Both the position numbers and the translations under genes were made by a program. From positions 1 to 38,144 of the IMG/VR virus record IMGVR_UViG_3300036846_000713: a stretch of 38,144 bases of DNA; one strand, written 5' to 3'. Below the pieces are notes generated by a model. It saw nothing but the letters and a program-made list of their open reading frames with translations. It was not told where the DNA came from and ran no database searches. The stretch's first letter is position 1. The number at the start of each line of letters is the position of its first letter. This DNA is from a virus. Positions 2,562-10,125 of the stretch are shown one piece after another.

Positions 2562-3338
2562 ATGCCCCGTACCCCTAACGCGAGGGACGAATCCCTCGTC
2601 ACCCAAATACATGTGCCCGAATTGCAACATAGTATGATTAAGTTGCGCATTGTCGGCACGACGCCGATGTTTATGAATCGCATGACGGCCAAGGCCAAGC
2701 GCACGCTATTAGTCGGCGGGCGCAAGAAAACGCAAGTGGAACGCGCCGAAATTAAGCACAACCCTTTGGACGAATACCGCGACAGTGCCGAAATCTTGCG
2801 CGACCAAACCGCGCCCACGGCGCTGGGTTTGCGGCTTGTCGCGTTTAAGGCGGCTATGTGCACGGCGGCAATCGAAACCGCCGGGATTACCAAAACGTCG
2901 GCACAACGCTTGCTGTTTTTGCCGGGCGAAGTCACGCCGCTTTACGGCGTGCCGTTAATCCGGCTGGACACCGTGCGCAGTGCCGACATTAACCGCACGC
3001 CCGACGTGCGCGCCCGCGCCTATCTGCCCCGCTGGGGGGCGGAAATCGAAGTACACGCTGTCGTGCCGCAATTGCCCGTAACCGCCGTCGTTACCCTGGC
3101 CGTCAACGCCGGCTTGCTGATTGGCCTGGGGGATTTCCGCCAGGAAAAGGGCAAGGGCAATTTTGGCCTGTTCCGCGTGATTGCCGGCACCAAACCCGAT
3201 GCGGAATGGGACGAACTGGTGGCCGCGCACGGACGCGAGGCGCAATTGGACGCGTTGGCCGTCCCCAGCCCGGCCGACGCCGACACCGCCGAATTGCTGG
3301 AATTTGTCGAGTCCGAACAACGGCGGCGGGCGGCATGA
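2562..3338 (+). CDS. Conserved-type phage protein with Gly-rich C-terminal loop
   Basis: A 258-residue protein of unknown function with a good ribosome site. Features seen: an N-terminal segment of alternating hydrophobics with the text IVGTTPMFMNRMTAKAK; a central AFKAAMCTAAIET helix followed by GITKTSAQRLLFL; and a C-terminal GLGDFRQEKGKGNFGLFRV loop before an acidic tail. This pattern (TPMFMNRM, AFKAAM, GxGxFRxEKxGxFG) resembles a recurrent phage protein family that I recall only as uncharacterised. The glycine-rich loop near the end is reminiscent of RAMP/RRM-fold RNA-binding proteins, but that is speculation. The gene overlaps the next by 4 bases, so the two are probably co-translated. 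Confidence 0.7.
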   Translation: MPRTPNARDESLVTQIHVPELQHSMIKLRIVGTTPMFMNRMTAKAKRTLLVGGRKKTQVERAEIKHNPLDEYRDSAEILRDQTAPTALGLRLVAFKAAMCTAAIETAGITKTSAQRLLFLPGEVTPLYGVPLIRLDTVRSADINRTPDVRARAYLPRWGAEIEVHAVVPQLPVTAVVTLAVNAGLLIGLGDFRQEKGKGNFGLFRVIAGTKPDAEWDELVAAHGREAQLDALAVPSPADADTAELLEFVESEQRRRAA

Positions 3339-3844: not shown

Positions 3845-3853
3845 ACGATATGT

Positions 3854-3944
3854 CCGGGCGTCCCTGGACACGCCCGGGCGGCCCACGCGCGCCGCGTGGG
3901 TATCTGGCGCGGCCGGGGGACAGGTACCCCGGCCGCGCCTTTTT
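3854..3944 (+). terminator. Three stacked hairpins ending in a rho-independent terminator
   Basis: Hairpin 1 pairs 3854-3861 with 3870-3877. Hairpin 2 is perfect, 3882-3889 with 3893-3900, with a 3-base loop. Hairpin 3 has a perfect 13-bp stem, 3906-3918 with 3927-3939, loop GACAGGTA, followed immediately by TTTTT (3940-3944). Hairpin 3 is a strong classical terminator for the terminase operon. It also shields that operon from the repeat tract that begins about 15 bases later. Confidence 0.85.
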
Positions 3945-3956
3945 ATGGGTGCGGGG

Positions 3957-5371
3957 CAGGGCCCGGCGTGGCGCGGCGGGCATGGTCGGTTCGGCGTGGC
4001 GCGGCCAGGCTTGGCATGGCATGGCGGGCTAGGCTTGGCGCGGCGTGGCCAGGCAAGGCCTGGCGGGCGCGGCGCGGTTTGGCGCGGCTGGGCACGGCAA
4101 GGCTAGGTTTGGCGGGCACGGCAGGGCTAGGTTTGGCGGGCACGGCGGGGCCCGGCCCGGCCCGGCGCGGCGGGGCGCGGCAAGGCCCGGCCTGGCCCGG
4201 CGCGGCACGGTTGCGACGGGCGAGGCAAGGCTAGGCTAGGCACGGCGCGGCGGGCGCGGCGCGGTTTGGCACGGCGGGGCCAGGCCCGGCCTGGTACGGC
4301 GGGCGTGGCCTGGTTAACCCTGGCGCGGCCTGGCGAGACGAGGCGGCAAGGGCGACACGCGGCGGCCCCGGCCCGGTTGGACTTGGCAAGGCAAGCCAAG
4401 GCGCGGCGGGCGCGGCGGGGCTGGGCGGGGCACGGCCCGGCATGGCCCGGCCAGGCACGGCGGGTTTGGCAAGGCTTGGCCCGGTTGGGCACGGCAAGGC
4501 GGGGCATGGCTGGCGGGGCCAGGACTGGCACGGCAAGGCAGGGCGCGGCATGGCTTGGCGGGCGACGCATGGCGCGGCGCGGCTGGGTTTGGCGGGGCGT
4601 GGCAAGGCACGGCGGGCCTGGCGTGGCGCGGCGAGGCTTGGCTCGGCACGGCGCGGCTTGGCCGGGCACGGCGGCCCTGGCGTGGCACGGCTTGGCGTGG
4701 CGCGGCGAGGCTTGGCACGGCGCGGCGCGGCTTGGCGGGCGCGGCACGGCCCGGCGGTGTTCGGCACGGCCCGGCGTGGCATGGCGTGGCTTGGCTGGTG
4801 CGGCCCGGCGGGGCTGGGCGGGGCCCGGCTTGGTGAGGCAACGCATGGCATGGCTGGCGGGGCCAGGACTGGCCCGGCTGGGTTCGGTACGGCGCGGCTG
4901 GGCGCGGCACGGCACGGCGGGCGCGGCGCGGCTGGGTTTGGCAAGGTAGGGCTTGGCGCGGCGGGGCAAGGCATGGCACGGCGGCCGGGGCATGGCTGGG
5001 CGCGGCAAGGCAAGGCCCGGCATGGCGGGGCGCGGCGGGCTTGGCCCGGCCTGGCCCGGCGTGGCGAGGCTTGGCTTGGCGCGGCCCGGCCTGGCGGGCG
5101 AGGCTTGGTGCGGCGCGGCCAGGCGCGGCCTGGCATGGCCCGGCACGGCGGACTGGCAAGCCAGGGCCACGCCGGGCAAGGCATGGCAAGGCGCGGCGGC
5201 CCTGGCTGGGCATGGCGCGGCGCGGCACGGCTGGGCCGGGTTAGGCCTGGCGGCCTTGGTATGGCGGGGCGCGGCTGGGCTGGGCATGGCGGGCACGGCC
5301 TGGCTTGGCCGGGCAGGGCATGGCAAGGCCTGGCTTGGCACGGTATGGCACGGTATGGCATAGTTGGCGGG
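3957..5371. repeat. 1.4-kb degenerate GGCNN pentamer tract
   Basis: GGC recurs almost every 5 bases for about 1.4 kb, with a variable dinucleotide between (AT, AC, GC, TT, AA, CA, CT, TA and others). Occasional four-base GGGC steps shift the phase, and some units change GGC to GGT. The + strand is strongly G-rich relative to C. Because 5 and 3 are coprime, every + frame reads the same degenerate pentapeptide and every - frame reads a Pro/Ala-rich one. The only stop the pattern can form is TAG, from TA (or, on the other strand, CTA) units. This explains six-frame openness without coding. I see no ribosome site, domain or codon bias supporting a gene. The function is unknown: recombination, packaging, structure-forming DNA or selfish repeat are all possible. 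Confidence 0.9.
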
Positions 5372-5394
5372 CAACTTAGGCAAAGGCCCCGGCT

Positions 5395-5694
5395 ATGGCA
5401 GCAAGCGACGACACCAACCCGCTTAACACCCCGCGCATTGTCTTTAGGCAATACGACGGCGAGGAGTATTTGCAATTTTTGGGCCCCGTCGACGGCGGCC
5501 ACGTGGGCGTCGATTTTGCCCGGTGCTATGTGCTGGCGCAAATGGGGCAGACATTGGGCGACATGGCCCCGGGGCTGGCCAGTATCGCGGGCGCGCTGGC
5601 GCGAATCGCCGACGCCCAGGACAAAATTGCCGCCGCGCACCTACGGCTGGCCCAGGCGCTAGAACGGCTGGCGCGCGACGGGCGCATGCACTGA
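5395..5694 (+). CDS. Hypothetical protein with C-terminal coiled coil
   Basis: A 99-residue ORF directly after the pentamer tract. The N-terminal half is mixed (PRIVFRQYDGEEYLQFLGPVDGG). The C-terminal half is a heptad-like helix (LASIAGALARIADAQDKIAAAHLRLAQALERL), so it may oligomerise. The switch to ordinary codon usage of this genome exactly at 5395 supports a real gene. The ribosome site is weak (TTAGGC and AAAGG upstream). No family recognised. It is isolated between the tract and a 300-base gap. Confidence 0.6.
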   Translation: MAASDDTNPLNTPRIVFRQYDGEEYLQFLGPVDGGHVGVDFARCYVLAQMGQTLGDMAPGLASIAGALARIADAQDKIAAAHLRLAQALERLARDGRMH

Positions 5695-6114: not shown

Positions 6115-6351
6115 CTGGGGGGTGATTTGGGGGGTTGGCCCCCACCGCGGGGGCGAAAACCAAGCCAAATCAATACCTTGTCGGCTTATGGCCAACACCT
6201 CGGCAAGCCCGGCCACGCCGTGCCATACGGTGCCATACCGTGCCAACCCCCCAAATAAATGGCGGTTTCCCGCCGATGGCCTTGACTATGCTTACCATGC
6301 CGTGCCATACCGTGCCCAACGGCTGGGGGGTTATTTGGGGGGTTGGCCCCC
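6115..6351. repeat. Repeat-dense site before the integrase (attP candidate)
   Basis: A 29-bp direct repeat occurs at 6115-6143 and 6323-6351 with one mismatch; its core is TTTGGGGGGTTGGCCCCC. An inverted 17-bp copy of the same core lies between them at 6242-6258. Next to the inverted copy and before the second direct copy are runs of GTGCCATACCGTGCC (around 6219-6241 and 6301-6316). These are the pentamer repeat of the 4-5 kb tract read on the opposite strand. Direct plus inverted repeats immediately 5' of a tyrosine integrase are the expected architecture of an attachment site with arm-binding sites. They could equally control integrase expression through alternative hairpins. Confidence 0.55.
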
Positions 6352-6375
6352 GCCCCCCAGGCGCACGGAGACGAC

Positions 6376-7653
6376 ATGCAAGACAAACTTACCCTGGGGC
6401 AAATCCGCGACGTGATTGCCAAAACCCCGCACGCCAAAAAAACCAAGTATCCCGACGGTGGGGGGTTAAATCTGGTGGCCATGCCGTCGGGCGGGCTGTT
6501 TTGGAAACTCAAATACCGCGTGGCCGGCGTCGAAAAGGAATTGTCGATTGGCGCTTGGCCGGCCGTCAGCTTGGTTGCCGCGCGCGACGCCCGCGCCCAG
6601 GCCAAGGCGCAAATTGCCGCGCGCAACGACCCCAGCGCGGACAAGGCCGCCGCCGCCCGCGCCGCCAAGGCACCCCAGGCCGACGGGCCAACCTTTGCCA
6701 AGTTTGCCGACGACGTGCTTGCGGCGCGCAAATCCCAACAGCAACCCGAAACCAAGCGCAAATGGGAAACCCAGCTGGGCCACGCCAAGGCGGCATTTGG
6801 CCCGCGCGACATTGGCACAATCACCAATGCCGAAGTCCTGGCGTTCCTATCGCCCTGGCAGACGGCCGGCAACCTAACCGCGTTGCACGGTATCCGCGCC
6901 CGCATGGCGGTTGTGTTTAGGCGGGCCATTTGGCACGGCGCTTGCGCCAGCAACCCGTGCGACGGGTTAACGGATATGCTGCTGACAAAACGCAACAAAA
7001 AATTCAAAGCGATTGTCGACCCCACGCCGTTTGCCGACATGCTGCAACGGATTGACGCGCACGGGCGCCCGGTAAGCCGGGCGGCCTTGCTGTTTTTGGC
7101 CCTGACCTTCCAGCGGCCCAACATGGTGCGGCTTATGGAATGGGCTGAAATCGACTGGCAAGCCAAACGCTGGATTGTGCCGGACGCCAAAATGAAGGGT
7201 TGGGCGGGCACCGGGCGCCAGCACATTGTGCCGCTGTCCGCGCCGGCAATCGACTTGCTGCGTGGCTTGCTGCCCCTGACGGGCGCGGGCAAATTGGTTT
7301 TCCCCGGCCGTCACCACGGGCGGCCTATGGGCGACGGCGGCCTTGCCAAAGTGCTAGCGCGGACGATTGGCAGCCCGGACCACGTTGCGCATGGTTTCCG
7401 CGCGGCGGCCAACACGCTGATTAAGGAACAGCTGGCGGGCAAATTGCTGGCCCGCATGCCGGCAACCGCGCTGCTAAAGTTGCAAGAAATTATCGACGTG
7501 CAATTGGCGCATATCCTTGGCGGCACGCGCGGCGCTTATGACAGGGCGTTGCTGATTGACGAGCGCACGGTGCTTATGGAGGTTTGGGGGGAATACGTCG
7601 ACGGCTTGCGCGGCCAGGCGCCGCGCGTCGTCAAGCTGGGGCAAGCGGCATGA
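6376..7653 (+). CDS. int: P4-type tyrosine integrase
   Basis: A 425-residue site-specific recombinase that would integrate and excise the phage DNA. The N-terminal ~85 residues form the DUF4102-type arm-binding domain (KYPDGGGLNLVAMPSGGLFWKLKYR...ELSIGAWPAVSL). A SAM-like core-binding domain follows (about 105-200), then the catalytic domain. Catalytic residues seen: R247 (TFQRPN), H339-x-x-R342 (HGFR), H379 (LAH) and nucleophile Y388 (GAYDR). All are present, so the enzyme should be active. ATG 6376 is chosen, with a GGAG-like site upstream, over an upstream TTG at 6343 that falls inside the 29-bp repeat. The stop overlaps the next start by 4 bases. Confidence 0.9.
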   Translation: MQDKLTLGQIRDVIAKTPHAKKTKYPDGGGLNLVAMPSGGLFWKLKYRVAGVEKELSIGAWPAVSLVAARDARAQAKAQIAARNDPSADKAAAARAAKAPQADGPTFAKFADDVLAARKSQQQPETKRKWETQLGHAKAAFGPRDIGTITNAEVLAFLSPWQTAGNLTALHGIRARMAVVFRRAIWHGACASNPCDGLTDMLLTKRNKKFKAIVDPTPFADMLQRIDAHGRPVSRAALLFLALTFQRPNMVRLMEWAEIDWQAKRWIVPDAKMKGWAGTGRQHIVPLSAPAIDLLRGLLPLTGAGKLVFPGRHHGRPMGDGGLAKVLARTIGSPDHVAHGFRAAANTLIKEQLAGKLLARMPATALLKLQEIIDVQLAHILGGTRGAYDRALLIDERTVLMEVWGEYVDGLRGQAPRVVKLGQAA

Positions 7654-8536: not shown

Positions 8537-8710
8537 CGGCACGGCATGGCACGGCATGGCACGGCATGGGAAACATGGGACGGGCCGCGCGACATGCTGC
8601 ACCGCGTCAAATTAGGGGTAAATCCTGGCACGGCATGGCACGGCATGGCACCCCCGGCGATATTGACTTGGCGCCCGCTTAGGCACAAATCCTTGGGCCT
8701 GGACGCGATT
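8537..8710. repeat. Short pentamer arrays and duplicated intergenic element
   Basis: Two short arrays of alternating GGCAC and GGCAT units lie at about 8537-8570 and 8626-8651, just after the terminator; they match the GGCNN tract but are regular rather than degenerate. GGGGTAAATCC (8615-8625) and AATCCTTGGGCCT (8688-8700) repeat the pair found at 5916-5986. The remainder of the 8450-8785 gap shows no gene. The following GATTATTAAC stretch near 8708 is the AT-richest part and may hold a promoter, but I see no convincing -35/-10 pair. Confidence 0.6.
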
Positions 8711-9304: not shown

Positions 9305-10125
9305 TGCCCCGGGCGCTGGCCGACTTTATCCGCGATTTGGGCGCGGCCGGCGCCAGCAAAAAAGTGATCGCGCTGGCTGTTGAACATATCCAAGCGTTGG
9401 AGGCCGATTTGCGCGCCGAGGGCGCGGGGATTGCCGAACGGCTGGCAGCATGGCGGGCCGACGGCGCCGCGCGCACCCGCCTAAGCCGGGCCAAAAAACG
9501 GGCCCAGCTGGCGCCGGCTAACCCTATGGCAAACGGCGCGGATTTGCCCGGTAACGTGACAATACGTGACGGTAACGTGACGTCACGTGACAGTAACGTG
9601 ACGTCACGTGACAGTAACAATTCACCCCCCCTGATTGCCCCCCCTGATAAACCCCCCCCGGACCCCCTAAAATTAACCCCCCCTTTAACCCCCCCACCGT
9701 GTGACAACCCGCGCGCGCGCGCGGCGGCCAGCGCCCAGCATTTGCCCGACGATTGGCAACCGGCCCCGTTTGCCGCTGACAGCCAGGCGGCGGCCAGGGC
9801 AGCCCGCATGGGCGACGATTGGGTTGCCGACGAACTGGAAACTTTCCGCGCCCATTGGGCAGCCAGCGGCTTGCCCAACGCCCGCAAACGCAGCTGGCAA
9901 AACGCCTGGGCCTGTTGGCTCAAGCTGGCCGAAGGCAAAAGGAGGCCGACGCATGGACGACGCCAAAACGATTTGGGAAATCTTGCCCAGCGGCCCGACC
10001 CCATCCTCGCCGCCTACCGCGACGCAATCGCCGACGTTGCGGCCGAGCAAAGTGCCGCCGAAAATCAGGGCTTTGATTTTGGAGCTAGGCTTGCGCTACC
10101 GGCCGCCGGCACGCGAGGACATTGA
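9304..10125 (+). CDS. DnaT-like phage replication protein carrying the iterons
   Basis: A 273-residue protein. N-terminal helices (about 1-70, ending SRAKKRAQLA) are followed by a repeat- and Pro-rich linker (about 80-140). A conserved-type domain follows: LPDDWQPAPFAADSQAAARA...WVADELETFRAHW...NARKRSWQNAWACWLKLA (about 145-220). This matches the C-terminal domain I know from phage replication proteins of the DnaT/primosome type. The linker contains 7-residue repeats NVT(I/S)RD(G/S), which are the 21-bp DNA repeats at 9551-9619, as lambda O carries its origin. The last ~58 codons overlap the next gene in another frame, which is unusual. The stop could be displaced by a sequencing frameshift, or the overlap may be real. 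Confidence 0.7.
   Translation: MPRALADFIRDLGAAGASKKVIALAVEHIQALEADLRAEGAGIAERLAAWRADGAARTRLSRAKKRAQLAPANPMANGADLPGNVTIRDGNVTSRDSNVTSRDSNNSPPLIAPPDKPPPDPLKLTPPLTPPPCDNPRARAAASAQHLPDDWQPAPFAADSQAAARAARMGDDWVADELETFRAHWAASGLPNARKRSWQNAWACWLKLAEGKRRPTHGRRQNDLGNLAQRPDPILAAYRDAIADVAAEQSAAENQGFDFGARLALPAAGTRGH
9551..9619. repeat. Iteron-like 21-bp tandem repeats, candidate origin
   Basis: Two perfect 21-bp units lie at 9572-9592 and 9593-9613, each containing GTAACGTGAC then GTCACGTGAC. They are preceded by a diverged unit (9551-9571) and followed by a partial one (9614-9619). Each unit includes the palindromes CGTGACGTCACG and GTCACGTGAC. A strand-biased stretch with repeated C6-C8 runs interrupted by AT-rich words (TAAAATTAA near 9668) follows. 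Iterons inside a replication gene next to an easily melted region is the lambda-type origin layout. The origin assignment is inference. Confidence 0.6.

Follow-up and report, generated by a model that had tools for sequence, protein, structure and literature searches.

VIPR (Viral Interference Programmable Repeat) systems were described in 2026 (PMC13142463; bioRxiv 2026.04.26.720920). According to the main text of this preprint, a VIPR system combines a vap gene with the phage-encoded RAMP protein Vipr and with vrRNAs built from 9–16 YNNGG repeats, in which the GGY bases serve as a scaffold and the NN pairs recognize double-stranded DNA with a one-base skip; the systems silence competing phages (PMC13142463). 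The characterized systems are those of the SUSP1 and Pseudomonas fulva prophage types, and in the characterized clades each vrRNA carries an invariable structured 3' tail. Seven types (I–VII) with variable array architectures are distinguished, the vap genes are numbered vap1–6, and 'staggered arrays with overlapping vrRNAs' are named as one architecture (PMC13142463). CRISPR RAMPs have been proposed to descend from VIPR.

Here, a stretch of 38,144 nucleotides, termed the window, was analyzed at its full length (positions 1 to 38,144 of the IMG/VR virus record IMGVR_UViG_3300036846_000713). It harbors a tyrosine integrase gene (phrog_1) at 6343–7653 as well as genes for terminase, portal, major head protein with a protease part, tape measure, and DNA methyltransferase, which together indicate a temperate siphophage-like record. 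We interpret a tract of GGY-NN pentamers in the window, with a probability of roughly 0.94, as a VIPR vrRNA array; its carrier would be a temperate tailed phage whose host is probably an alphaproteobacterium. A previous sequence-only reading had stated that no described element resembled this tract; that statement is superseded, as the tract matches, with an identical repeat code, the VIPR vrRNA arrays presented in the main text of the 2026 preprint (PMC13142463). The features of the locus are listed in Table 1.

Table 1. Features of the proposed VIPR locus in the window.
Feature	Position	Strand	Basis
vipr gene, 258-aa Vipr (proposed ancestral RAMP protein)	2562..3338	+	phrog_4652, profile and fold matches
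vap-type accessory gene, 169 aa	3335..3844	+	phrog_15946, position and recurrence
Pair of strong hairpins downstream of vap and before the array; with the TTTTT after it, the second resembles an intrinsic terminator	3852..3944	+	folding, terminator scan
Probable vrRNA array, GGY-NN pentamers in ~25 blocks (putative guides)	3955..5372	+	motif and spacing analysis
Best-preserved part of array, 16 consecutive blocks of 7–12 pentamers	4409..5291	+	
Block starts 1–8 of best-preserved part	4409, 4463, 4512, 4561, 4615, 4674, 4738, 4797	+	
Block starts 9–16 of best-preserved part	4856, 4920, 4984, 5038, 5097, 5150, 5199, 5253	+	
Example of 4-nt boundary unit, GGCG	4405..4408	+	
Further GGCG units	3975, 4023, 4062, 4111, 4135, 4249, 4298, 4459, 4557, 4611	+	
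Further GGCG units (continued)	4670, 4734, 4916, 4980, 5034, 5093, 5195, 5249, 5288	+	
GGCT units	4508, 4793, 4852	+	
Final block of 14 units, with the irregular array 3' end	5292..5397	+	

The tract is about 1.4 kb long, has sharp borders, and contains 276 GGY motifs; its earlier placement at 3957–5371 was correct to a few bases. Exactly five nucleotides were counted in 186 of 252 GGC-to-GGC spacings, and self-identity at lag 5 reached 0.617 as compared to 0.356 ± 0.014 in Markov-1 simulations (z = 18). A pyrimidine occupied the third position of the triplet in 230 of 240 cases, whereas the NN positions comprised all 16 dinucleotides with an entropy of 3.66 of 4 bits. GC content was 79%, with 50% G. 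The sequence-only reading had described pentamers with a near-random dinucleotide, 4-base phase slips, and extreme G-richness of one strand, and all of these were borne out; the slips are real and non-random and comprise about 25 four-nucleotide units, most of them GGCG, with a few GGCT. Its two flanking features were also found, namely a strong terminator-like hairpin upstream (3906–3939 plus a T-run, 13 G–C pairs) and an open reading frame at 5395 downstream.

Open reading frames of 93–469 amino acids overlap the tract, and since all six frames contain long open stretches, a translated repeat protein might be suspected. This has next to no likelihood, because the absence of stop codons in GGYNN accounts for the open frames, the four-base units shift the frame repeatedly, and what is preserved in the arrays of relatives is the 5-nt register rather than a reading frame; the tract had rightly been read as non-coding. 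Another explanation is a degenerate microsatellite or a selfish repeat that expanded through replication slippage and has no function. The strict 5-nt period would fit this explanation, as would the likeness of a few neighboring blocks such as 4615 and 4674, which have six units in common and in register. However, adjacent NN pairs were no more alike than expected by chance (0.068 versus 0.090), which counts against growth by slippage and indicates that the tract is not a recently slipped microsatellite; the high NN entropy and the regular block length described below argue in the same direction.

The sequence-only reading had proposed a GGCNN search of related phage and host genomes. An outward scan for viral contigs with nine GGC every five bases, in which contigs were chosen by the DNA pattern only, revealed at least 120 viral contigs that show the same pattern; their GC contents were 39–76%, NN was degenerate in most, and some of them contained several arrays; plain microsatellites were a handful of the matches listed (e.g. 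L020, L069, L074, L114, L115). The open reading frames neighboring the tracts were clustered without prior knowledge, followed by profile iteration, and two protein families were obtained, of which the first two genes in Table 1 encode the window members. The first family (Vipr), merged by profile iteration, adjoins the tract in 86 of the 120 contigs listed. Among the listed loci with a called tract, it was located within 1 kb of the tract in 80 of 80 and on the same strand in 79 of 80, but it was found in none of 80 control loci fetched by means of the window's terminase. In the other 34 of the 120 tract loci listed, Vipr was absent from the stretch examined; some of these are cut contigs and a few are plain microsatellites. 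The association with one protein family already refutes the microsatellite explanation, including the expanding selfish repeat of the sequence-only reading, and leaves it very improbable.

Several lines of evidence identify the adjoining protein. A profile of the Vipr clade of the window, searched against all PDB sequences, had a sole match, 36pp 'SUSP1 Vipr protein' (E = 7.3e-6); this protein was reached by the profile only and was missed by phmmer with the single Vipr sequence. The iterated Vipr HMM also matched a homologue in phage SUSP2 (E = 3.6e-41), and GGY/NN repeats are present around the SUSP2 gene as well. An AlphaFold2 model of Vipr (mean pLDDT 82) gave Csm3-type RAMPs of type III CRISPR complexes as best Foldseek matches, with probabilities of 0.97–0.99, E-values of about 1e-4, and low global TM-scores of 0.3–0.4; the Foldseek library extended to 2026-04-08, and 36pp was absent from it. 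A RAMP/Cas7-type, Csm3-like fold is therefore predicted for the protein. Its C-terminal glycine-rich loop, GxGDxRQEKGKGxFG, was invariant in the 15 sequences of the clade alignment. Recurrence of the tract, the same adjoining protein family, and the match to 36pp together lead to the reading of the tract as a VIPR vrRNA array. At gathering threshold, Rfam assigned no family to any part of the window, and a hammerhead-interspersed array was not found. A CRISPR-Cas array was also considered and rejected, as identical repeats separating spacers were absent and the neighboring genes are phage genes with no cas genes nearby.

The start codon of the second gene overlaps the vipr stop codon (ATGA), so that the two genes form an operon-like pair. 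This gene was named vap-type because of its position and recurrence; homologues occur in 26 of the 120 tract-selected loci listed and are present in almost every close Vipr locus. Both PHROGs, phrog_4652 (Vipr) and phrog_15946 (vap), are of unknown function, and a Pfam search with the two proteins returned nothing convincing. The AlphaFold2 model of the vap product (pLDDT 88) consists of helices and a beta hairpin in a winged-helix-like arrangement plus a long C-terminal helix. Its N-terminal part is predicted to be a putative DNA-binding domain of the helix-turn-helix/winged kind, a reading drawn from secondary structure only, because the fold search against solved structures (PDB) gave no match. 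The vap profile of the window did not match the gene neighboring the SUSP2 homologue. In a tree of 117 Viprs, this second gene and most of the slip arrays fell into one clade (66 rows, 99/94), which does not include SUSP2; the slip arrays of L062 and L089 are located outside this clade.

The hairpin region downstream of vap folded with −82.8 kcal/mol (z = −4.4). In the closest viral relative (L209), the terminator is located 3' of the array, whereas in the window it lies between vap and the array. Transcription of the array past the hairpin at 3906–3944 would require either read-through or an array start that escaped recognition.

The same relative shares 62% Vipr identity with the window, has the same order vipr-vap-array, and uses GGCA as boundary. 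Close Vipr loci were found in Bradyrhizobium, Methylobacterium, Microvirga, Aureimonas, and one alphaproteobacterial MAG; the closest relatives contain vipr, vap, and array in the order of the window, and there, too, a 4-nt unit interrupts the register. Vipr of the alphaproteobacterial type was additionally observed in two MAGs of distant phyla, Nannocystis (L249) and Nealsonbacteria (L256), which may be misbinned contigs.

Packaging, recombination, and G-quadruplex or R-loop formation had been put forward as possible functions in the sequence-only reading, and a DNA or RNA structural element forming two-tetrad G-quadruplexes or R-loops for packaging, replication, or recombination would agree with 50% G and a GG every five bases on one strand. 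However, the array of one branch (about L225–L235) consists of GTYNN in place of GGYNN at the same position, and those of L211 and L218 consist of G(G/A)YNN, also at the same position. Hence, conservation concerns the 5-nt register rather than the G run. Furthermore, the preference for C or T as third base is no requirement of a G-quadruplex, and the 3' end of the array folded no better than shuffled sequences (z = +1.1). A structural element is thus hardly credible. The broader argument of the sequence-only reading, that so costly a tract is likely to have a function, was strengthened: conservation of position with drifting dinucleotides, which it had named as a sign of function, is exactly what the relatives display. 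Its interpretation is therefore supported in part.

The vrRNA array of the window is divided by the four-base units. In the best-preserved part, the 16 blocks contain, in order, 10, 9, 9, 10, 11, 12, 11, 11, 12, 12, 10, 11, 10, 9, 10, and 7 pentamers, and the closing unit of each is 4 nt long, except for one of 3 nt. Mean block length is 10.25 ± 1.3 five-base units, and none of 50,000 random cuts was equally even. The segment 3955–4408 is less regular. A shared tail between the blocks was not found in the window array. In other loci, block lengths peak at 7–10 units, and very short blocks form a minority; some blocks of L209 and L049 contain 1–4 units only. The letter of the 4-nt unit is near-constant within a locus and was A (GGCA) in 159 of 201 units from 31 loci, so that the window with its G (GGCG) is unusual. 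A larger array was observed on a 158-kb contig (L061), with 33 four-base units, blocks of 7–10 pentamers, and non-repeat gaps between groups of blocks. Irregular stretches of the window array (4519–4530, 4865, 5150–5175, and 4310–4400; e.g. GGCCAGGACTGGC, GGACTTGGCAAGGCAAGCCAAG) show a broken GGY pattern and short inverted repeats; they are possibly processing sites or decayed guides.

In a group of near-identical phages (L226–L233), the array consists of separate blocks of about 49–84 nt bounded by GTTAAG[T/G]CG|GTT. One block is identical in L229, L230, and L231, and variants of it occur in L226, L232, and L233; other blocks are unique, and the differences comprise whole units. Shared and unshared segments start and stop at 4-nt units, one of which directly follows the vap stop codon. 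As judged from these sequences, array blocks of these phages apparently move as cassettes, and the sharing and loss of whole blocks suggest that the 4-nt unit, an interruption of the 5-nt register, most likely marks the end of one guide and the start of the next. A VIPR array might instead carry the 4-nt units inside its guides, where they would serve, for example, to follow a target or give rise to overlapping, staggered guides. Such an architecture is named in the main text of the preprint ('staggered arrays with overlapping vrRNAs', PMC13142463), and blocks of 1–4 units, as in L209 and L049, are too short for a guide. On the other hand, the window contains 16 blocks of 7–12 units in a row, and the segments of L226–L233 begin and end at 4-nt units; we regard the placement inside guides as unlikely. 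For the complete proposal, namely a tail-less type of VIPR array with the 4-nt unit as guide punctuation, in which one transcript yields about 25 guides that related phages acquire, lose, and shuffle among themselves as cassettes, we see even odds.

By analogy with the SUSP1 and P. fulva systems, the array would be transcribed and each block would give rise to one guide of about 45–65 nt. Vipr subunits would coat the guide and hold the GGY bases as a scaffold, successive NN pairs would base-pair with double-stranded DNA with one base skipped in between (nNNnNN...), and this pairing would silence genes of competing phages. The 4-nt unit would separate the guides, and whole guides would be exchanged as cassettes; these last two steps are our own proposal. 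That the window array targets other DNA is suggested by homology to a system for which RNA-guided binding of DNA has been proven.

Targets were searched with several guides. The full guides 4615 and 4674, read with a 1-nt skip code, had no matches in viral contigs. The 8-unit cores of 4615 and 4920 gave 67 and 36 matches in viral contigs, the flanks of which were no better than chance, and guide 4920 had none in 199 genomes of one order. The guide common to L229–L231 gave seven chance matches. When all guides were compared with the loci collected here allowing 0–3 skips, no skip stood out and the 1-nt skip showed no excess. The best apparent 1-skip match, in L370, was rejected, since this locus had been fetched by the same pattern and the match is out of codon phase. 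Seven genomes were also searched for the host by means of the capsid protein, and the matches were weak only. Overall, no target was found with the few guides and the few sequences tried, a result that is weak evidence.

Additionally, a 10-mer, GGCACGGYAT, was found in tandem at four intergenic sites around the integrase gene, the copies on one side of the gene being inverted relative to those on the other (6221–6244 and 6293–6316 on the minus strand; 8538–8571 and 8627–8650 on the plus strand), and in the last array units (5337–5360, plus strand). Allowing at most one mismatch, 15 matches were counted as compared to 0.16 expected, six of them within the array. The 10-mer looks like a candidate integrase-arm or repressor site. 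A palindromic tandem repeat, GTAACGTGACGTCACGTGACA, is located at 9551–9618 inside a replication-initiator-like gene.

The window represents an addition to the known, very recent VIPR kind, with an architecture not detailed in the main text of PMC13142463: that text contains neither a tail-less array nor 4-nt cuts into blocks of 9–12 units nor gain and loss of cassettes. It would constitute a large natural bank of VIPR guides; together, the window and its relatives indicate the punctuation of guides and the mode of change of the bank. Near-identical phages apparently exchange whole guides, although a Cas1-like gene was not noticed. If the proposal of a tail-less array is true, the array would be a CRISPR-like memory bank with turnover by recombination without Cas1. 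The source of new VIPR guides is thereby directly testable by strain comparison.

As compared to the VIPR systems of SUSP1 and P. fulva as described in the main text of the preprint, the window likewise combines, in a phage, a Vipr homologue with predicted RAMP fold and glycine-rich loop, a small vap-type gene in a minimal locus, and a same-strand, intergenic, non-coding GGY/NN array, whose mean block length lies within the 9–16 repeats of a guide; carriage by a phage or provirus is indicated by the integrase, portal, head, tail, and terminase genes. SUSP1 has four vrRNAs with a 3' tail each and a different vap, whereas the window has about 25 putative head-to-tail guides with a 4-nt separator and no common tail. 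As VIPR array architectures vary among the seven types (PMC13142463), the absence of the tail concerns the type and not the membership. The 'staggered arrays with overlapping vrRNAs' of the preprint may have the same architecture as the window array. Microsatellites have a short period as does the tract, but here two of five positions are near-random and neighboring units are uncorrelated. With CRISPR class 1 effectors (Csm3/Cas7) the window shares the predicted RAMP fold, the glycine-rich loop, and array turnover by whole units; in contrast to them, spacers are not separated by constant repeats, cas genes were not found nearby, and the guide information is interleaved with the scaffold every five bases.
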